A stretch of DNA of 53,691 bases, taken from NCBI GenBank assembly GCA_028866655.1, contig JAGWHQ010000009.1:1-53691 (forward strand). Reading direction: 5' to 3'. Position 1 is the stretch's first letter, and each line of letters opens with the position of its first letter. Position numbers and translations under genes: made by a program. This document shows, piece after piece, positions 29,732-38,928 of the stretch. The DNA comes from Nitrososphaerota archaeon. Its GTDB lineage: Archaea > Thermoproteota > Nitrososphaeria > Nitrososphaerales > Nitrosopumilaceae. The notes below the pieces were generated by a model that did no database searches, was not told the origin of the DNA, and worked only from the letters and a program-made list of their open reading frames with translations.

Positions 29732-30874
29732 TTAGGACTTGGTGGAATGATTTTTGAATTCATGCAGTCTTCTTAGGTGCGATAACATCCTCTTAAAGAC
29801 CTCAATGCTCCTTAGGAACTCATCAGTTGATACTCGCTCATCAATTGTATGTGATGCGTGAGGATCTCCTGGACCATATGTGACAACTGGAATGTTTAGT
29901 GAATTTCCTATTATGTTCATGTCTCCTGTTCCTGTCTTTCGAATTAGTTGTGGTCTTGCTTTTTCTACATCCATTATTCCTAATGTTAGTGCCCTTACAA
30001 GTGGAGAATTATGTGGCGCCTCAAAAGGTTCTGTCTCATCTATTACAGAATAGAATGCATTGACTCCTTGTTTTTTTGCAATCTCTTCTACTGTTGTTGC
30101 AATTCTTTCTCCAACCATTTTACAATTCATGTTTACTGGAATTCTGATATCCATTATTGCATCGCATTCTAGTGGTGTTACATTGTGACTAGTACCACCC
30201 TTGATTTCAGTCAGAGATGATGTTAGCATCATGCTCTTTGCTATGCCTTCTTGGTTTTGCTCTAGTGATTTTTTTAGTGCGTTAGTAAATACGTATGATT
30301 CTTCAATTGCATTCTTTGCAAGCCATGGAGCACTTGCATGCGCACTATCACCTACATTTACTCGCAGATTTATTGCAATTCTTCCCTTGTATGCAATTGT
30401 AATATTTTTAATTCCACTTGGTTCTCCAAATATTGCGTAATCTATCTCTGGCTTTTGTTTTACCAGACTCTTGATTCCTGTAGCGTTTCCTTCTTCATCT
30501 ACAACTGCTGCAAATATTATTGTCCCATTGTTGTTTCCTTGTACTGATGCTGCTGCAAGAAGCATTGAAATTAAAGGTGCCTTGGCATCTGATGCACCTC
30601 TTCCATAAATGAATCCGTCTTCATTTCTTACCTTTATCTTTCCTGGAACTGTATCCATGTGTCCACATAACATTATTCTTGGATATCCGGAACCCTTTGT
30701 GGCAATAAGATTTCCTACATCATCTATGTGGATATCTTCAAATCCAAAATCATCACACTTGTCTGCTAGAAACTCTGCCAGTGGTTTTTCTGCAAGAGAT
30801 GGTGTGTAAAGTCTTAGAGCCTTCTCTAGCACCTTTACTGAATACCTTGGTGTACTAGTTACTGAGGAGTCCAA
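29732..30874 (-). CDS. lysK: LysW-lysine/LysW-ornithine hydrolase
   Basis: M20-family zinc carboxypeptidase of 380 residues that releases lysine (and ornithine) from the LysW carrier, the last carrier-bound step. The metal and catalytic stretches are LCGHMDTVPG, YGRGASDAKAPL, VVDEEGNATG and the late GDPHASHTIDE. Only one lysK is present for two carriers, so it probably serves both pathways. It is the last gene of the homocitrate synthase-lysW2-lysX2-lysK transcript, with a 3-base gap after lysX2. Confidence 0.93.
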   Translation of the reverse strand: MDSSVTSTPRYSVKVLEKALRLYTPSLAEKPLAEFLADKCDDFGFEDIHIDDVGNLIATKGSGYPRIMLCGHMDTVPGKIKVRNEDGFIYGRGASDAKAPLISMLLAAASVQGNNNGTIIFAAVVDEEGNATGIKSLVKQKPEIDYAIFGEPSGIKNITIAYKGRIAINLRVNVGDSAHASAPWLAKNAIEESYVFTNALKKSLEQNQEGIAKSMMLTSSLTEIKGGTSHNVTPLECDAIMDIRIPVNMNCKMVGERIATTVEEIAKKQGVNAFYSVIDETEPFEAPHNSPLVRALTLGIMDVEKARPQLIRKTGTGDMNIIGNSLNIPVVTYGPGDPHASHTIDERVSTDEFLRSIEVFKRMLSHLRRLHEFKNHSTKS

Positions 30875-30877
30875 TTT

Positions 30878-31726
30878 TTATTTCCCTAGATTTACTGCGT
30901 AATCAATCATCATTGCTGGTATATTTACGCCAGTAACTCTGACAGTATTTTTGTATTCCGTTGTATTGTTTACTTCGTGTACCACAAGCCCGTTTTCCTT
31001 ACTTTCCATTAGATCTACCCCAACTATTTGTCCTTGAACTGCTTCTTTTGCCTTGATACAAATGTCTTCTAATTCTTTTGTGACTTTGAGTTCTTCTGCT
31101 CTGCCACCAAGTGCCATGTTTGTCTTCCATTGGTCTTCTCCTGAATAACGGTAAATTGCCGCAACAACTCTATCCCCTACTACAATTGCTCTAATGTCTC
31201 GTGGAGGTCTGTTAACAAATTCTTCCAGATAGTATACTTGGTAAATTGGATACATACTCTCTCTACTTTCTATTATTGCCTCTGCGGATTCCTTGTCTTT
31301 TAGCATGGCAATCATTCGTCCCCAACTGCCTACTGTTGGTTTGATTACCATTGGGTATCCTTTTTTTTCTAAAAGATCAAGTGCAGATTCTTGTGAAAAT
31401 GCAACTGCGCTAAACGGTGTTGGTATTCCTTTTTTTAGCAAAAGCATGTGAGTAAATAATTTGTTTCCTGCAAAGATGCTGGTGTTCAAGGAATTGATGA
31501 CATTGACTCCTTTTCCTTCAAGTGCCGCAGTAGAGTGAAGACTGCGATAGTAACTTACACATCTTTGTATTACTATGTCGTAATCTTCCTTGCTTTTATC
31601 TAGATTTATGGATAAATTCTTACAGTCTACCATCTTTGCATCGATGCCTTTCTCTTTTGCAGCATCAAAGAGTGCTTTTTCTTCCCACCTTATGGTATCG
31701 TAAAGAATCGATAAACCCGGGCTCAC
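30878..31726 (-). CDS. lysX: LysX/ArgX-family LysW ligase, copy 2 (homocitrate-synthase-linked)
   Basis: An ATP-grasp (RimK-like) ligase of 282 residues that attaches the amino group of alpha-aminoadipate or glutamate to the C-terminus of LysW. Motifs: YPMVIKPTVGSWGR, EFVNRPPRDIRAIVVGD and VGVDLMESKENGLVVHEVNN. GTG 31726 overlaps the lysW2 stop (GTGA), so the pair is co-translated. The substrate-side loop reads SLNTSIFAGNKL, differing from the other copy (RTEVANNCGNKM). Context with homocitrate synthase suggests aminoadipate, but loop resemblance, recalled from memory, does not settle it. Its acceptor carrier ends in Gln, not Glu. Confidence 0.88.
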   Translation of the reverse strand: MSPGLSILYDTIRWEEKALFDAAKEKGIDAKMVDCKNLSINLDKSKEDYDIVIQRCVSYYRSLHSTAALEGKGVNVINSLNTSIFAGNKLFTHMLLLKKGIPTPFSAVAFSQESALDLLEKKGYPMVIKPTVGSWGRMIAMLKDKESAEAIIESRESMYPIYQVYYLEEFVNRPPRDIRAIVVGDRVVAAIYRYSGEDQWKTNMALGGRAEELKVTKELEDICIKAKEAVQGQIVGVDLMESKENGLVVHEVNNTTEYKNTVRVTGVNIPAMMIDYAVNLGK

Positions 31727-31887
31727 TGGCCCCAGTCCTCACCAACAGATTGTGCTGGTTTTAACTCAAAGCCGGAGGATCCTTTAGCAAGCTCAAAACT
31801 TGCACCGCAATCAGGACAGGTTACTATCTCTCCTTCCATCGAATCTTGTGGAGGGTTGATGTTTGCATCACATTCTAAACATTTCAT
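31723..31887 (-). CDS. lysW: Amino-group carrier LysW, variant ending in EDWGQ
   Basis: A 54-residue acidic zinc-ribbon carrier. CxxC knuckles are at residues 3-6 (CLEC) and 24-27 (CPDC). It is followed by acidic residues and the C-terminal tail VGEDWG. LysW normally ends in Glu, whose gamma-carboxylate carries the substrate. Here the last codon is CAG, giving EDWGQ. The frame and stop are secure: the start is 1 base after the homocitrate synthase stop, and the stop overlaps the lysX GTG. Either the carrier is charged differently (alpha-carboxylate, or after deamidation), or it has another role. Confidence 0.9.
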   Translation of the reverse strand: MKCLECDANINPPQDSMEGEIVTCPDCGASFELAKGSSGFELKPAQSVGEDWGQ

Positions 31888-31888
31888 A

Positions 31889-33079
31889 TTATTTTCCTGC
31901 TTTTACCTTCGTTTCTGTGTCATTAATTATCTTTCGTTCAAGTCTGTCATCAAGTGGTATCTCAAGCAAATCTCCCATCCTTAAATTCTTCAGGCCAGCT
32001 GCTACTGACTTTGCATGGGTTTCATTTTGTTCAAGACCTAATAATGACATCAAGTATGCTGCACCGTTCTTTCCTGCAAGTTCTCCAAAGACAATTCTTC
32101 TCCTATTTCCTACCACCTTTGGCTCGATTGGTTCGTATGCAGCAGGGTTTCTCAAAATAGCTGCTAGGTGTGTTCCAGCCTTGTGTTTGTAAGCAGTAGG
32201 ACCAACAATTGGCTTTGAATCATAAGGTATGATTGTGGTATATTGTTCAATTAGTCTTGAGAGGTCCATGAGCATGTCCAGTCTGAAATTATTTGGGGAC
32301 TTGTATAGGTATGTCAAAGCAACTGCAGTCTCTGCAAGTGCTGGTATTCCGGTTCTTTCTCCTATGCCATCAATTGTTGTATGAATCTGGTCTGCACCAC
32401 CATCACATCCTGCCAGCGCATTTGCAAGTGCAAGTCCAATGTCATTGTGACAGTGGACATCAAGTGGTGTTTTTATCTCATCACGAATTGATTTTACAAA
32501 ATTATACATCCCATTTGGTCTCATGATTCCAACTGTATCTGGCAAACTAATCCTGTCAACTCCTGCATCAGAGATTGCCTTGCAGACCTGCATTAAGAAT
32601 TCTGGGTCTGCTCTGCTACCGTCTTCAACTGTAAATCTCATCTTGAGACCATGTGACTTGGCATATTCTACTGTCTCAACTGATCTTCGTAATGCTTCTT
32701 CTCTTGTTATTCTCAGCTTGTCCTTCATGTGAATTTCAGAAATGCCAAGATAAGTTGCCATCCATGTTGCATCGCAATCTAGTGCAACGTCTACATCTTC
32801 TTTTAATGCTCTAACGTGAGCAACAATGTCTGCCTTTAATCCTTGTTTGATGATTGTCTTCGTTGCTTCCTTGTGATCTGGTGATACTACAGGTGATATC
32901 TCAATTTGATCTACTCCAAAATAATCAAGCATCCATGCAATCTGAATTCTTTGTTTGTTTGAAAAAGTAACACCAGGGTGCTGTTCTCCTTCTCTTAGTG
33001 TACTGTCAAGTATTCTAATTTTTTTTGGTTTTACGCCCATCTCGTTGTATTGATATGCGTAATAGTTCGCGTCGTCCAT
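31889..33079 (-). CDS. Homocitrate synthase (LeuA/Lys20 family)
   Basis: A 396-residue acyltransferase of the isopropylmalate/homocitrate synthase family. It condenses acetyl-CoA with 2-oxoglutarate, starting the aminoadipate route to lysine. Motifs: ILDSTLREGEQHPGVTFS (catalytic Arg and Glu), MRFTVEDGSRAD, SLPDTVGIMRPNGM and the metal site VHCHNDIGLA. The AHVRALKEDVDVALD segment resembles homocitrate synthases more than LeuA, and the lysW-lysX-lysK genes follow directly. LeuA-type activity cannot be fully excluded. A TATA-like GTTTATATTT (about 33102-33113) gives a near-leaderless start. Confidence 0.85.
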   Translation of the reverse strand: MDDANYYAYQYNEMGVKPKKIRILDSTLREGEQHPGVTFSNKQRIQIAWMLDYFGVDQIEISPVVSPDHKEATKTIIKQGLKADIVAHVRALKEDVDVALDCDATWMATYLGISEIHMKDKLRITREEALRRSVETVEYAKSHGLKMRFTVEDGSRADPEFLMQVCKAISDAGVDRISLPDTVGIMRPNGMYNFVKSIRDEIKTPLDVHCHNDIGLALANALAGCDGGADQIHTTIDGIGERTGIPALAETAVALTYLYKSPNNFRLDMLMDLSRLIEQYTTIIPYDSKPIVGPTAYKHKAGTHLAAILRNPAAYEPIEPKVVGNRRRIVFGELAGKNGAAYLMSLLGLEQNETHAKSVAAGLKNLRMGDLLEIPLDDRLERKIINDTETKVKAGK

Positions 33080-33196: not shown

Positions 33197-33616
33197 TTAT
33201 GTGACAGTACGCAATATTATGACAGTGTTTGTATCAAACACGCCTGGAACCTTTCGTAATTCATCGATACATACGTTGATGTCTGTAATTGTAGGTGCCT
33301 TGATTATTGTGGCAATATCATACTGTCCTGTTATCTCAAACACTGTGTGAACTCCACGTAATTTGGAAAGTTTTGCAGATACTTTTGATGTATCAGTTGA
33401 TGAATCAACTGAAATTAAAATTATGGCACTAGTAGAATTTGCATCTCCTGTTTCGATTGTAAATTTTTTAATTATTCCTCCGTCTGTGAGATTCTTCACT
33501 CTACGTCTTACTGCTGATTCTGACAATCCAAGTTTTTCACCAATCTCTACAAATGATTGCCTAGAATCTTTTTTTAGTATCTCCATTATTGTCTCATCTG
33601 TTTTATCTCTAGACAT
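33197..33616 (-). CDS. Lrp/AsnC-family transcription regulator (LysM-like)
   Basis: A 139-residue full-length Lrp protein: N-terminal helix-turn-helix (SFVEIGEKLGLSESAVRRRVKNL) and a C-terminal effector domain (TVFEITGQYDIATIIKA). Its ATG overlaps the lysJ/argD stop by 8 bases, so it is in the same transcript. In Sulfolobus the analogous LysM, set beside lysWXJK, activates them when lysine is scarce. A similar local role is likely, acting on the homocitrate synthase promoter directly downstream. Confidence 0.88.
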   Translation of the reverse strand: MSRDKTDETIMEILKKDSRQSFVEIGEKLGLSESAVRRRVKNLTDGGIIKKFTIETGDANSTSAIILISVDSSTDTSKVSAKLSKLRGVHTVFEITGQYDIATIIKAPTITDINVCIDELRKVPGVFDTNTVIILRTVT

Positions 33617-34784
33617 TTCTTCGCTGTTCCTCCTTTGTTAGTATTACATCTAGAGTTTCTAAAGCTTTGTTTATGTCAGACTCTGATATCACTAGAGGCG
33701 GTAATAATCGTAGTATGTTTTTACCGGAATAAAGCAAGAGTAGATTATTTGCAATTCCATCAAACAATATGTCCTTTACTTCAAACTTCATCTCAACACC
33801 AATCATCAAGCCCTTACCTCTTATCTCTCTAATTATCTTGTGTTTTTCTTTTAGTCTCTCTAATCCTTCTCGAAATATCTTTCCATTCTTGTCTGCATTC
33901 TCAACTAGCTTGTCTTCTACTAGTGCATCAATTGCCCCAATTCCTGCTGCACATGATAATGGATTACCACCAAATGTTGAAGATTGTTCTCCCTTGCTAA
34001 TTGAGGCCAAGATATCTGGTCTTACTAGAGTAGCACCCATTGGCACGCCTCCTGCAATACCTTTTGCAAGGCACATGATGTCAGGTACTGTATCCCAGTG
34101 CTCACATGCCCACATCTTTCCAGTTCTTCCAAGGCCTGCTTGAATTTCATCAAATACTAGAACGATTCCTTTCTCATCACATAATTTTCTAACTTGTTGT
34201 AAAAATCCATCTGGCGCAACATTGATTCCACTTTCTCCTTGAATTGGTTCCATGATAACCATTGCAGTATCAGAATCTACGGTATTTCGTAATGCTTCAA
34301 TATCTCCAAACGATGAAAAACTTACTGAATCAACAAGAGGCTCAAAGGCCTTACGATATTTCTGATTGAATGTAACTGATAGTGCACCAAGTGATTTTCC
34401 ATGGTATGAGCCGTTCATTGCAACCATTTTTTTCTTTCCTGTAAACTTGCGTGCAAACTTGATTGCAGCCTCTACTGCTTCTGTTCCGCTGTTGTTTAGG
34501 TAAACCTGGTTTAAATTTTTTGGTGAAATTTTTATTAATTTCTCAAGAAATTCTTCACGGGTCTTGTTGTAAAGCGAACTGTGTACTGTGATTATTTTAT
34601 CGAGTTGATTTTTTATTGCCTTTACTACTCTTGGATTACAGTGGCCAACTAATGCAACACCATAACCACCCATACAGTCGATGTATTCCTTTCCACTTGC
34701 ATCCCATACATGAGCTCCCAATCCACGCTCTATTGTTACAGGAAATCTCTGATAGATACTTCCCATGAATTGATCTTCTGTCAT
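33609..34784 (-). CDS. lysJ: LysW-aminoadipate semialdehyde/glutamate semialdehyde transaminase
   Basis: A 391-residue class III PLP aminotransferase (ArgD/LysJ group): NSGTEAVEAAIKFAR, the Asp of LVFDEIQAGLGRTG, and the PLP lysine in CLAKGIAGG. It transfers an amino group from glutamate to the carrier-bound semialdehyde. One copy for two carriers implies dual lysine/ornithine use. It overlaps lysZ by 4 bases and the Lrp gene by 8. Confidence 0.92.
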   Translation of the reverse strand: MTEDQFMGSIYQRFPVTIERGLGAHVWDASGKEYIDCMGGYGVALVGHCNPRVVKAIKNQLDKIITVHSSLYNKTREEFLEKLIKISPKNLNQVYLNNSGTEAVEAAIKFARKFTGKKKMVAMNGSYHGKSLGALSVTFNQKYRKAFEPLVDSVSFSSFGDIEALRNTVDSDTAMVIMEPIQGESGINVAPDGFLQQVRKLCDEKGIVLVFDEIQAGLGRTGKMWACEHWDTVPDIMCLAKGIAGGVPMGATLVRPDILASISKGEQSSTFGGNPLSCAAGIGAIDALVEDKLVENADKNGKIFREGLERLKEKHKIIREIRGKGLMIGVEMKFEVKDILFDGIANNLLLLYSGKNILRLLPPLVISESDINKALETLDVILTKEEQRRNV

Positions 34785-35581
34785 TTTGATATCACCGTAC
34801 AGTTGTCATGAGAAATTGCCGCAGATATTGGGTTTTCCTTTTTGCCATTTGCAACAAGTGCCTCCTTGACGCCCATCTCCAACGCTTCTGTTGCAGCAAG
34901 GATCTTCTTTTCCATGCCAAATCCAATCTTTGGTAAAATTGCTTTTGCTTCTTCTAATGATAGTTTTTGGACTAGCTTTTCTTCCATGAGTAAACCGTCT
35001 ACATTTGTGAGAAATAATATCTTGTCTGATTTCATCTTGCCTGCTACGTATGCTGCAGCCCTATCTCCGTCAACATTGAGAAAGTCACACTCTTCACTTA
35101 TTGCAATGGGTGATATCACTGGAACATATCCTTGGTCTAGTATGGATTGAATCAACCCCGTATTGACATCCTGTATCTTTCCTGTATAGCCGCCATCTAT
35201 TATCATCTTGCGACCCTTTTCGTTCATTACAATTAGTTTCTTTTTTCGTTCTGCTTGTATTATTTTTCCATCTACTCCTGAGAGGCCAACTGCATTGATT
35301 CCATGTTTTTGGAGCATGCCTACTATCATTTTATTTATTTTTCCTGACATGACCATTGTAAATATCTCTGCAGTCTCTTTGTCAGTAAACCTACTCTTGA
35401 CTCCTCCTGGGGATACGATAAATTTTTGTTCTTTTCCTAGTGCTTCAGAAATTTTTGTTACTTCTTTTCCTCCACCGTGTACCAGAATGAGTTTCTCTTT
35501 CTCTGAGACTTTTTTTATGTCTGATATTGTAGTAGGATGAAGACCATCTACCACACTTCCTCCTATCTTTATTGTAATCAT
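34781..35581 (-). CDS. lysZ: LysW-aminoadipate/glutamate kinase
   Basis: A 266-residue amino-acid kinase (ArgB/LysZ group) that phosphorylates the carrier-bound side-chain carboxylate. Visible motifs are the start TIKIGGSVVDG, phosphate loop LVHGGGKEV, SPGGVKSRF, and LNVDGDRAAAYVAG. It starts 3 bases after the lysY/argC stop and overlaps lysJ by 4 bases. The SPGGVKSRFTDKET loop is the usual position of difference between LysZ and acetylglutamate kinases; here it fits the carrier-dependent type. Confidence 0.92.
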   Translation of the reverse strand: MITIKIGGSVVDGLHPTTISDIKKVSEKEKLILVHGGGKEVTKISEALGKEQKFIVSPGGVKSRFTDKETAEIFTMVMSGKINKMIVGMLQKHGINAVGLSGVDGKIIQAERKKKLIVMNEKGRKMIIDGGYTGKIQDVNTGLIQSILDQGYVPVISPIAISEECDFLNVDGDRAAAYVAGKMKSDKILFLTNVDGLLMEEKLVQKLSLEEAKAILPKIGFGMEKKILAATEALEMGVKEALVANGKKENPISAAISHDNCTVISK

Positions 35582-35584
35582 TTT

Positions 35585-36637
35585 TTACACAGGTGTTAGC
35601 GGAGAATATGCGATTCCTTCCATCTCATTGAATCCTGCCATCACATTCATGTTTTGTATGGCGGAGCCTGCTGCACCTTTCATGAGGTTGTCTGATGCTG
35701 AGAGAACTACAAGTCTGTTATTGTCTTCGTCAATATCAAATCCTACATCACAAAAGTTTGAACCTACTACAAACTTTGGATCTGGGAATTTGTAAAATCC
35801 TTTCTTATCACGAATTAGTCTGATGAATCTTTCATTTTGGTATTGTTCGCGATACATCTTCCACAAATCCATTTCAGTTACTGGCTGTTTTAGAAATACA
35901 TGGTTTGTACAAAGAATTCCTCTTACGATATCCACTGCATGTGGACTCATTGATACTTTGATCTTAGAACCTGCTGCTTGACTTAGCTCTTGTTCTATCT
36001 CTCCAGTATGTCTGTGCTTTGCTGGTTTGTATGGTCTAATTACACCTGACCTCATTGCATGATGAGTACCTGAGAGAGTTCCTGCGCCTGCACCAGATGA
36101 ACCAATCTTTGAATCAACTATGATATGTTCTGTATCGATGATGTTCTTTTTGATCAATGGGTATAATCCGAGAATTGATGTTACTGCCATACATCCTGGA
36201 CATGATACAATCTGTGATTTTTTTATCTCCTCTCTGTGTAGCTCTGGAACTCCAAAGACTGATTTTTCTAACAACTCTGGGTGTGGATGTTGCCAACCAT
36301 ACCATTTATCATAATCTGCAGGATTGTGTAATCGATAATCTGCACTAAGATCAATTACTTTCATTCCTCTGTCATAGAGTGCTTTTACAATGTCAACTGC
36401 AGTTCCATGTGGTACTGCAGTAAAGACAATATCACACTTGTCTGTTAGTTTATCATAATCTAGTTCTGAAAATGTCAAATCTGTAAATCCCTTCAAGCTT
36501 GGTTGGATTCTGGAAATGTATTCTCCAACATACTGTCTTGAAGTTACCATTGAAATTTCTGCATGTGGGTGACTAACAAGTAATCTAAGAATTTCTCCGC
36601 CGACATACCCTGATGCTCCTACTACACCTACTTTCAT
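35585..36637 (-). CDS. lysY: LysW-phosphate reductase (ArgC/LysY)
   Basis: A 350-residue semialdehyde dehydrogenase. The NADPH loop VGASGYVGGEILRLL (about 4-18) and the catalytic Cys in VSCPGCMAVTS are present, followed by GSSGAGAGTL and HRHTGEIEQEL. It reduces the carrier-linked acyl phosphate from LysZ to the semialdehyde. It lies between ligase copy 1 and lysZ on one transcript; the 63-base gap before it is AT-rich (TATAATTTAAAC-like), so an internal promoter is possible. Confidence 0.93.
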   Translation of the reverse strand: MKVGVVGASGYVGGEILRLLVSHPHAEISMVTSRQYVGEYISRIQPSLKGFTDLTFSELDYDKLTDKCDIVFTAVPHGTAVDIVKALYDRGMKVIDLSADYRLHNPADYDKWYGWQHPHPELLEKSVFGVPELHREEIKKSQIVSCPGCMAVTSILGLYPLIKKNIIDTEHIIVDSKIGSSGAGAGTLSGTHHAMRSGVIRPYKPAKHRHTGEIEQELSQAAGSKIKVSMSPHAVDIVRGILCTNHVFLKQPVTEMDLWKMYREQYQNERFIRLIRDKKGFYKFPDPKFVVGSNFCDVGFDIDEDNNRLVVLSASDNLMKGAAGSAIQNMNVMAGFNEMEGIAYSPLTPV

Positions 36638-36700: not shown

Positions 36701-37558
36701 TTATCGCTTGGCGTAACTTATTGCGTAGTCGATCATTTCTTTTGGTATGTCTCTTTTGGCAACTTTTGCAAGTCCCTTGAATTCTACGGTGTTGTTGACT
36801 TCGTGTACTACAAATCCGCGTTTTTCGTCTTCCATGACATCAATTCCCAGGATTCCGCCTCCTACTGCCTTTGATGCCTTCATGCAGATGTCTTCCAACT
36901 CCTTTGTAATTTCACATGCAATTGGTTCTGCACCAAGGGCAATGTTTGTCTTAAAGCCGCCTGTGGATGTTCTGTACATTGCTGCTATCAACTGGTCTCC
37001 TACAGATATAGCTCGTATGTCTCTTGGAGGACGTTCCACAACCTCTTGTAGGTAGTAAATCCTGTCTAATGGTCCATCATTTAGTTCTCTGACCTCAATT
37101 ATTGCATCAGCTGTCTCTCTGTTTCTTAGTGGTACCACCCCTCTTCCCCAGCTTCCTATGATTGGCTTTATCACAAGGGGATAACCGTCTTTTTCTAGCG
37201 TCTCAATTGCAGCTTCAGATGAGAATGTAAAGTATGTTTTTGGAGTAGGCACGTTGTGTTTTTTTAACAACAATGATGTCACCATCTTGTTTCCGCAATT
37301 GTTTGCTACCTCTGTTCTGTTAAGTACTGGAATATCTAAAAATTCAAGAGCTGCTGTAAAATGAAGACCACGAAAGTAACTTACGCATCTTTCTAAAACG
37401 ACATCTCCGAAATCGTAATCACTTTTTTTACTTTCAGTGGTAAATTGAGTGGTTTTAGCGTCGATCATCTTCGTATCGTGTCCAAGCTCGATTGCTTTTT
37501 GCTCGAGCATCTTCTCCTCTAGTCTTACTCTATCGAACACGATTCGAACTTTGGGCAT
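36701..37558 (-). CDS. LysX/ArgX-family LysW ligase, copy 1 (argG-linked)
   Basis: A 285-residue ATP-grasp ligase, paralogue of the gene at 30878. Motifs: YPLVIKPIIGSWGRGV, EVVERPPRDIRAISVGD, LGIDVMEDEKRGFVVHEVNN. The substrate-side loop LNRTEVANNCGNKM resembles Thermus LysX as I recall it, but its place beside argG and a standard carrier favours glutamate and arginine synthesis. Whether it is ArgX, LysX or bifunctional is therefore open. It starts directly after the lysW1 stop. Confidence 0.87.
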   Translation of the reverse strand: MPKVRIVFDRVRLEEKMLEQKAIELGHDTKMIDAKTTQFTTESKKSDYDFGDVVLERCVSYFRGLHFTAALEFLDIPVLNRTEVANNCGNKMVTSLLLKKHNVPTPKTYFTFSSEAAIETLEKDGYPLVIKPIIGSWGRGVVPLRNRETADAIIEVRELNDGPLDRIYYLQEVVERPPRDIRAISVGDQLIAAMYRTSTGGFKTNIALGAEPIACEITKELEDICMKASKAVGGGILGIDVMEDEKRGFVVHEVNNTVEFKGLAKVAKRDIPKEMIDYAISYAKR

Positions 37559-37726
37559 TTACTCTCCCCAATCTTCGCCAACTTTCTCAGCATGCTTTAA
37601 TTCGCATACGCTACCGTTCTTGGAAGCAATCTCGAAATCTGCCCCACAATCAGGACATGAGACTATCTCTCCAACACTTGCATCGTCTGGAATTTTTATT
37701 GTTGCATCACATTCTGGACAATTCAT
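37559..37726 (-). CDS. lysW: Amino-group carrier LysW, standard EDWGE form
   Basis: A 55-residue acidic zinc-ribbon carrier with knuckles CPEC (residues 3-6) and CPDC (24-27) and the canonical C-terminus EDWGE, whose terminal Glu accepts the substrate. ATG 37726 gives the usual MNCPEC start. The upstream GTG 37741 overlaps the argG stop (GTGA) and would add five residues; it cannot be ruled out. It sits between argG and ligase copy 1, consistent with a role in arginine synthesis. Confidence 0.93.
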   Translation of the reverse strand: MNCPECDATIKIPDDASVGEIVSCPDCGADFEIASKNGSVCELKHAEKVGEDWGE

Positions 37727-37737
37727 TCTTTGATCAT

Positions 37738-38928
37738 TCACCTCTTTTTTAGTAATTTATTAGCTTCTGTTGATTGAAGTCCCCATAGCTCAACGAATCC
37801 TTTTCCAAGAGTTTGGTCAAAAGTTGATCCGGCTCCATATGTTGCCAGATCATGGCTATACAATGAATATTCTGATTTTCTTCCAACAACTCTAAGACTT
37901 CCTTTGAACATTTTGAGCTTGACGGTTCCGCTAACCCTCTTCTGTGTAGCATTGATAAACATATCTAAATCTGATTTTAGTGGATCTTGCCACAATCCAG
38001 AATATGCAAGCCATGACCATTCTGTATCAACCATTGTCTTGAATCGTAATTCGTGTTTTGTCAAAACCATTTTTTCAAGATCAGTGTGTGCTTCAATAAT
38101 GCATGTTGCACCTGGCGTCTCATAGACTTCCCTTGATTTTATGCCTACTACTCTGTCTTCGATGTGGTCTACAATTCCTACTCCGTTTGCGCCTGCTTTT
38201 TTGTTGATGTATTTGATTAATTCAATTTGTTTCATGCGTTTTCCATCAGCTGCAACAGGTATACCATTTTCAAATTTTATTTCCAAGTATTGTGGTTTTT
38301 CTGGCAAGTTTTTTGTCTTGACCCAGATGAATGCATCATCTGGTGGCTCTGAGAATGCATCTTCCATATCTCCGCCTTCGATTGCTCTTCCCCACAAGTT
38401 TTGATCGATACTGAATTTTTTTGCAGTGTTATCAATCGGAATGTGGTGTTTTTGTGCGTATTTCAATTCTACATCTCGTGTGAGATTGAGATCGCGTATT
38501 GGTGCAATGATTGGAAGATTAGAACCTGAACGATATGTAACATCGAATCTTACCTGATCATTTCCTTTTCCTGTGCAACCATGTGCAAGTGCAGATGCAT
38601 TTTCTTTTTCTGCCACTTCAACTACTTTTTGTGCAATCAATGGTCGTGCAAGTGATGTTGCAAGACAGTATTTTTTTTGGTATAATGCATTTGCCTTGAT
38701 AGCTGGAAAAATAAAATTATCTACAAATTCTTGTCGTGCATCAATGTTGTAATGTTTTAACACACCTAGACTTTTTGCCTTGGCTAAAATCTTTTTCAAG
38801 TCATCTTCTTGACCAACATCAACTGTAACTGTTATGACATCAAGTTTGTGTTTTTCTTGAAGATATTTTATCACAACAGAAGTATCCAGTCCGCCAGAGA
38901 AAGCTAGAACTGCCTTTCCTTTCATCAT
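37738..38928 (-). CDS. argG: Argininosuccinate synthase
   Basis: A 396-residue enzyme that joins citrulline and aspartate with ATP, the penultimate step to arginine. The ATP pyrophosphatase loop AFSGGLDTSVV (about 9-19), ALAHGCTGKGNDQVRFD and APIRDLNLTRD are typical. It is the first gene of the arginine/lysine block and has its own upstream region. argH is not in the window. Confidence 0.96.
   Translation of the reverse strand: MMKGKAVLAFSGGLDTSVVIKYLQEKHKLDVITVTVDVGQEDDLKKILAKAKSLGVLKHYNIDARQEFVDNFIFPAIKANALYQKKYCLATSLARPLIAQKVVEVAEKENASALAHGCTGKGNDQVRFDVTYRSGSNLPIIAPIRDLNLTRDVELKYAQKHHIPIDNTAKKFSIDQNLWGRAIEGGDMEDAFSEPPDDAFIWVKTKNLPEKPQYLEIKFENGIPVAADGKRMKQIELIKYINKKAGANGVGIVDHIEDRVVGIKSREVYETPGATCIIEAHTDLEKMVLTKHELRFKTMVDTEWSWLAYSGLWQDPLKSDLDMFINATQKRVSGTVKLKMFKGSLRVVGRKSEYSLYSHDLATYGAGSTFDQTLGKGFVELWGLQSTEANKLLKKR

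Follow-up and report, generated by a model that had tools for sequence, protein, structure and literature searches.

Archaeal and bacterial LysW carriers with an encoded C-terminal glutamine, and a possible priming step by release hydrolases

Introduction

The LysW amino-group carriers described in Thermus, Sulfolobus, Thermococcus and Natrinema combine a zinc ribbon with an EDWG tail and are encoded in operons with the ligase LysX and the LysYZJK set. Their final residue is the cargo-bearing Glu, and the cargo is held on its gamma-carboxylate; in Natrinema ArgW the attachment residue is Glu54, and its replacement in an E54A strain causes arginine auxotrophy (PMC10433800). In the metabolic model of Nitrosopumilus maritimus, the LysW Nmar_1287, located beside argX (Nmar_1288), is assigned to arginine biosynthesis, and the portion of that publication available to us makes no mention of the tail of the other LysW (PMC6038301).

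A C-terminal Glu is thus far the working rule for amino-group carriers. Here, we report that this rule is broken at the DNA level in most of the genomes of presumed ammonia oxidisers that we examined, as well as in some other archaea and in bacteria of several phyla, often where no second carrier was found. Either a post-translational activation acts as a priming step in amino acid synthesis, or LysX possesses a second linkage chemistry. We found no description of a Gln-ended LysW in the open-licence literature, which lacks key structural work. A small carrier-like protein that resembles LysW in this respect is Pup, which is encoded with a C-terminal Gln or Glu and joined via the Glu side chain; Dop, the enzyme that removes Pup, also deamidates Pup-Gln, the bond to be cut being identical in both reactions (PMC8223512).

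Results and Discussion

A Gln-tailed LysW in a lysine and arginine biosynthesis cluster

The window analysed here is a stretch of 53,691 nt from a Nitrososphaerota archaeon (assembly GCA_028866655.1, contig JAGWHQ010000009.1). It contains a cluster in the order argG, lysW1, lysX1, lysY, lysZ, lysJ, lysM, a homocitrate-synthase-like gene, lysW2, lysX2 and lysK (model scores with their cut-offs in brackets):

37738-38928, minus strand: argG (NF001770, 530.8, cut-off 334)
37559-37726, minus strand: lysW1, Glu-tailed paralogue ending in EDWGE (NF041070, 88.9 bits, cut-off 75)
36701-37558, minus strand: lysX1, ligase beside lysW1, ArgX-like by position (TIGR02144, 295.5, cut-off 275.6)
35585-36637, minus strand: lysY/argC reductase, single in the cluster (TIGR01850 argC, 426.7, cut-off 233.6)
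34781-35581, minus strand: lysZ/argB, [LysW]-aminoadipate/glutamate kinase, single in the cluster (NF010662, 295, cut-off 194)
33609-34784, minus strand: lysJ/argD aminotransferase, single in the cluster (TIGR00707, 428.9, cut-off 410.05)
33197-33616, minus strand: lysM, Lrp-type regulator (NF040947, 184.2, cut-off 180)
31889-33079, minus strand: homocitrate-synthase-like gene of the isopropylmalate/homocitrate synthase superfamily (TIGR02146, 379.2 bits, below the cut-off of 413.55)
31723-31887, minus strand: lysW2, zinc-ribbon amino-group carrier ending in EDWGQ (NF041070; CAG at 31726-31728, TGA at 31723-31725)
30878-31726, minus strand: lysX2, RimK-family ATP-grasp ligase, the expected loader of lysW2 (TIGR02144, 348.9 bits, cut-off 275.6)
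29732-30874, minus strand: lysK, M20 hydrolase that frees the product from LysW, and putative LysW-Gln deamidase (TIGR01902, 257.7 bits, cut-off 163.1)

The lysW2 gene encodes 54 amino acids (MKCLECDANINPPQDSMEGEIVTCPDCGASFELAKGSSGFELKPAQSVGEDWGQ) with the C-terminus ...SVGEDWGQ. Its 3′ codons read GAG GAC TGG GGC CAG TGA, and the GTG start of lysX2 overlaps the stop codon, so DNA and translation bear out the sequence-only reading of a second LysW that ends in EDWGQ; the observation that the other LysW of the window keeps EDWGE was likewise correct. Two copies of the EDWG DNA pattern are present in the window, compared with 0.02 expected by chance. LysW2 passes NF041070, the NCBI model of archaeal LysW/ArgW, with 82.7 bits (cut-off 75), and stays below the TIGR01206 lysW cut-off (26.2 versus 53.2). 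It possesses both the CxxC...CxxCG zinc ribbon and the EDWG tail and its gene adjoins that of a LysX-type ligase, as in known LysW carriers; unlike in these, the encoded attachment residue is not Glu, since the codon is CAG and orthologues also carry Gln. A whole-genome search (genome 94.6% complete) identified lysW1 and lysW2 as the only two convincing LysW genes, besides two weak matches (E-values of 0.05 and 0.24).

The products of the neighbouring genes fit a LysW pathway. The PDB matches of LysX2 are the LysX/ArgX structures 3vpd, 5k2m and 3vpb, and LysK contains a PF01546 domain and matches 5xoy, a [LysW]-lysine hydrolase. An intact operon with homocitrate synthase had been assumed in the sequence-only reading; the zinc ribbon, the EDWG tail, lysX and lysK hold, but the name homocitrate synthase does not reach its curated cut-off, and the product of 31889-33079 scores higher (427.5 bits) on a 2-isopropylmalate-synthase subfamily model, also below the cut-off (517), so that the name rests on context. 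The presence of argG assigns the lysW1 end of the cluster to arginine biosynthesis. Two Candidatus Nitrosotalea contigs (L176, L187) carry the same cluster genes at 94-99% identity, and the clusters that were read end to end contain both carriers but, counted within the cluster, one LysY, LysZ, LysJ and LysK each. At two further loci (L025, L215), LysX2 is split into two open frames, as are, at L215, several other genes of the cluster, possibly owing to assembly frameshifts.

The Gln tail is conserved among presumed ammonia oxidisers

When 250 genomes of the window's family were searched at the protein level, LysW was detected in 236, and LysW2 ended in EDWGQ in all of the 30 best-scoring loci, which comprise the window, 27 loci of the same genus and two of genus g18. 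At the level of the order (400 genomes), the DNA pattern EDWG[E/Q] was present in 374 genomes and the EDWGQ pattern in 278; these patterns also admit Glu in place of Asp and TGG in place of the stop codon. By hand count, EDWGQ occurred in 205 of the 232 genomes of the window's family (f1), in 66/70 of family f8 and in 6/7 of family f2, the three families which we take to be ammonia oxidisers. The other 14 families of the order yielded one match in 91 genomes (G389, EEWGQ), which is probably due to chance.

This alignment of orthologues had been proposed as the means of excluding an error, and with 27 further orthologues from the same genus, two from another genus and the pattern in 278 of 400 genomes an error of sequencing or assembly that put CAG in place of GAG, one of the explanations considered at the outset, is ruled out. 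GAG at this codon, which had been named as a sign of such an error, does occur in G114, G148, G149 and G162; these genomes represent switches on the tree and indicate no error in the genome studied here. The Gln tail of lysW2 is real and not peculiar to one gene.

Glu and Gln are exchanged between carriers while LysX stays the same

For a comparison of both carriers, 66 chosen genomes were searched at the protein level, of which 64 matched, and the fetched loci were read. All four combinations of tails were found. LysW1-Glu together with LysW2-Gln is usual in f1 and was seen in f2 (g23) and f8 (g44); the reverse, LysW1-Gln with LysW2-Glu, in f8 (g53 and g57). Both carriers end in Gln in f8 (g51, g41, g62, g63) and in f1 g21 (G244, G245), and both end in Glu in G148, G149, G114, G162 and f2 g50. 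Every LysW read from f3-f7 and f9-f17 had a Glu end, and G402 (f8 g60) possesses three LysW, two with Gln and one with Glu. Altogether, the residue after EDWG was Glu 75 times, Gln 48 times and never any other, with genes in overlapping loci counted twice. The restriction to Glu and Gln argues against a free side chain, because tolerance should also yield Lys, Asp, Ala, Gly or Val. A third tail residue in G030, G205 and G203 was considered and rejected, as their LysW2 matches end part-way (query positions 2-28, 1-40 and 1-35, respectively), as they would where a contig breaks off.

In the phylum Acidobacteriota, a survey by homology matched LysW in 83 of 199 genomes, and the 30 higher-scoring loci that were read comprised 19 EDWGE tails, 6 EDWGQ tails and 5 LysW-like proteins without an EDWG tail. 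The latter zinc ribbons (L357-L361), which are profile matches, have Asp/Glu-rich ends and are possibly non-carrier relatives. The tail changed at least 12 times on the LysX tree with 247 rows, and nine independent pairs lie on supported branches; the best LysX tree of 146 representatives including Acidobacteriota required at least 16 changes, again with nine independent supported pairs.

The LysX partners (165 of Gln and 82 of Glu carriers) share the GSWGR and R-D-x-R motifs and the acidic ATP-grasp residues, which are essentially invariant in both classes; in one row of the Gln class, the Trp of GSWGR is replaced by His. Across the nine supported independent pairs, 762 residue tests were made, and the best-scoring residue followed the tail in a maximum of 3.8 out of 9, in either direction. 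A raw mutual-information list was left out because it is confounded by the difference between LysX1 and LysX2. In G114, G148 and G149, where the DNA reads GAG and the tail is Glu, LysX is 94% identical to the nearest partner of a Gln carrier (L250). A re-specialisation of LysX for Gln was therefore rejected, as no tested residue tracks the tail, and the workability of Gln does not appear to come from a change in LysX.

Gln-tailed LysW occur in several phyla, often as the only LysW found

In the phylum of the window, the Gln pattern was present in 90 of 398 genomes, 74 of the 398 being members of the order already searched. Outside the order it occurred in 18 of 324 genomes, and 14 of these were confirmed as LysW-Gln beside LysX (families f25, f30, f48 and f51); G445 and G649 were unconfirmed as LysW, and the remaining matches are G528 and G435 (TGG in place of a stop codon). 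A scan of genome contigs for CAG-T in combination with a zinc ribbon gave at least 120 matches. Among the matches listed, archaeal LysW-Gln belonged to presumed ammonia oxidisers, Caldarchaeum and a Heimdallarchaeote, and bacterial ones to Gammaproteobacteria, Acidobacteria, Bacteroidetes, Calditrichia, Ignavibacteria, Phycisphaerae, Krumholzibacteriota and Wirthbacteria.

Among 29 genomes selected for their Gln tails, 28 yielded no Glu-tailed LysW; several of these assemblies are incomplete, and the 12 genomes reached through the contig scan carry no completeness figure. Only in G511 was a Glu-tailed one seen, a second LysW with the end EDWGE. In G256 and G294, each of which consists of one contig, a single LysW was found and it is Gln-tailed. 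These 28 genomes imply that the Gln form is the working carrier where the pathway runs, and the earlier options of a switch or of a non-carrier regulatory role are unlikely for the same reason. A Nitrosocosmicus contig (L197) contains argG and LysX1 with no EDWG-tailed LysW1 beside argG; judging from this arrangement, a single LysW with a Gln tail may supply both pathways, arginine and lysine.

A possible mode of action

The reading that we prefer, and to which we give about even chances, is that LysW2 is a working carrier whose Gln is a masked Glu, primed by hydrolysis of the side-chain amide, with the release hydrolase as the likeliest deamidase. The final Gln of LysW2 would be hydrolysed once at its side-chain amide to Glu, and from there on the pathway would run as in other LysW systems: LysX would attach the amino acid via the gamma-carboxylate, and the shared set of LysZ, LysY and LysJ would take over the loaded carrier. 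We infer that the mature Gln carrier equals the Glu one from the restriction to Glu and Gln, the unchanged LysX, the seemingly shared downstream enzymes and the lack of another carrier. The release hydrolase is the likeliest deamidase, since in freeing lysine or ornithine it cleaves a gamma-glutamyl amide at this very residue, and the bond in LysW-Glu-gamma-CO-NH2 does not differ from that in LysW-Glu-gamma-CO-NH-lysine. In this archaeon the enzyme would be LysK (M20), in many bacteria an EgtC-like relative of class-II glutaminases. The broader reading, a priming of LysW-Gln pro-carriers in two domains after the fashion of Pup and Dop, by two unrelated release hydrolases (LysK in archaea, the EgtC-like protein in bacteria), we hold more tentatively, at somewhat less than even chances.

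The main rival is a ligation by LysX at the alpha-carboxylate of the final Gln, which would lengthen the carrier through a regular peptide bond and leave the side chain unused. Alpha-ligation and deamidation, both raised as options in the sequence-only reading, remain the leading explanations. A terminal Gln leaves LysX only an alpha-carboxylate, LysX2 matches the RimK family model TIGR00768 (303.9 bits), and the conservation of LysX across both tails would also fit an enzyme that uses either carboxylate. RimK and CofF, alpha-L-glutamate ligases of the family to which LysX belongs, make alpha linkages, which are not known for a LysX. However, the side chain is limited to Glu and Gln over nine supported independent switches, and two linkages would have to be accepted by LysY, LysZ, LysJ and LysK, of which the clusters read contain one copy each. 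We regard alpha-ligation as a genuine alternative, but as the less likely one.

A direct swap of the Gln amide for the amino acid under loss of ammonia, by LysX or another enzyme and with no free Glu as an intermediate, would explain the equivalence of Glu and Gln without a deamidase. Such a transamidation is quite improbable, given that the ATP-grasp residues of LysX are kept in both tail classes and that no transglutaminase-like family was detected among the cluster genes scanned. Still less credit is due to the view of LysW2 as a regulatory or structural decoy next to a LysW1 that carries both substrates, for which the Glu-tailed LysW1 of this genome speaks but which is at odds with the Gln-only genomes described above and with the relatives in which the tails are swapped.

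Two types of candidate release hydrolase

For the preferred reading, priming by the release hydrolase, the distribution of these enzymes is of relevance. LysK (TIGR01902) was detected above the cut-off in all 17 archaeal genomes tested and in none of 12 others (11 bacteria and the Heimdallarchaeote), in which weaker M20 relatives only were present. The bacterial clusters with Gln tails encode a conserved protein of ~212 residues that starts with MCR, near LysY and LysZ. Genes for this EgtC-like Ntn hydrolase, at loci with no LysK shown, are:

L326, 9580-10218: EgtC-like Ntn hydrolase gene near LysY/LysZ
L329, 4955-5599: EgtC-like Ntn hydrolase gene near LysY/LysZ
L332, 11964-12602: EgtC-like Ntn hydrolase gene near LysY/LysZ

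One of three proteins tested matched PF13230 (class-II glutamine amidotransferase) with 35.7 bits (cut-off 23), and all three reached 44.5-54.7 bits on TIGR03442, the EgtC equivalog, far below its cut-off of 218.65; no NCBIfam cut-off was reached by the family. An AlphaFold model (pLDDT 86.8, pTM 0.86) had EgtC chains as its best 13 Foldseek matches (4zfl, 4zfj and 4zfk, the last being EgtC with glutamine), with E-values from 2e-12 to 1.3e-11 (4zfl, 2.2e-12) and TM scores of about 0.8. By this model, the bacterial protein shares the fold of EgtC, an Ntn amidohydrolase of the ergothioneine pathway that cleaves off a gamma-glutamyl group (PMC9103826).

Cys2, H-x-R and F-N-G are invariant across 10 EgtC-like sequences. 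In class-II glutaminases and Ntn hydrolases, such an N-terminal Cys is the nucleophile and F-N-G the oxyanion motif. The Asp that precedes Ser in four other class-II homologues is replaced by Gly in 8/8 aligned LysW-cluster proteins (IGAE or IGSQ), which sets these apart from EgtC as the missed equivalog cut-off does; in a further alignment (A2), Gly occupies the position in 9 of 10 rows and the tenth has a gap. In class-II enzymes, this Asp contacts the free alpha-amino group of the glutamine substrate, and an Arg its alpha-carboxylate. The loss of Asp combined with retention of Arg is in keeping with a protein's last residue as substrate, its amino group tied up in a peptide bond, its alpha-carboxylate free and its side chain bearing an amide. 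Retention of an Arg expected to bind a free alpha-carboxylate also speaks against alpha-ligation.

The type of hydrolase was associated with the tail in 28 bacterial loci: nine have LysK (9 Glu, 0 Gln), 14 the EgtC-like gene (12 Gln, 2 Glu) and five neither (2 Glu, 3 Gln), with a Fisher p of 6.7e-5 that ignores kinship and includes Gln loci partly found by their tail. Within Acidobacteriota, where the flanks of 19 of the 25 EDWG loci were read and 16 classed, 5 Gln and 2 Glu tails with the EgtC-like gene stood against 0 Gln and 9 Glu tails with LysK (hypergeometric 0.0048; 0.011 if G744, on which the survey was centred, is left out; kinship being ignored in both). On these data, the EgtC-like protein fits well as the deamidase of bacterial LysW-Gln, as far as sequence and predicted structure go. 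Its presence in two Glu-tailed clusters indicates that its first role is probably release, and the uncharacterised family is a candidate for the missing release enzyme of bacterial LysW clusters without LysK.

A profile of the EgtC-like protein matched 5/5 such bacterial genomes tested and the Heimdallarchaeote, gave a weak fragment in one of four LysK-type bacteria, and detected a weaker class-II homologue in one (G252) of eight archaeal genomes with Glu tails only. It matched none of 14 archaeal genomes with Gln-tailed LysW, and the EgtC-like gene was rejected as the deamidase of these archaea; the deamidase of the window would be LysK or something unseen. LysK is a candidate for this role in the archaeon studied, and the absence of Gln tails from the LysK-type bacterial clusters (0/9) speaks against LysK as a general deamidase. 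His72, Asp96, Glu127, Glu128, Glu151 and His342 of LysK, which we take to form the M20 site, are kept whichever the tail (at least 105/108 Gln and 28/28 Glu), and the comparison of LysK with the tail drew on four supported pairs only.

A deamidase of the Pup type was rejected for ammonia oxidisers, since PF03136, the family of Dop and Pup ligase, was found in 0/7 genomes of presumed ammonia oxidisers, and among 14 controls in Corynebacterium glutamicum alone. The parallel to Pup and Dop implies no sequence relation, and the cargo of LysW differs in being a metabolite. In the Heimdallarchaeote (L387, L391), the EgtC-like match consists of two neighbouring open frames on a contig (G753:C367) other than that of LysW.
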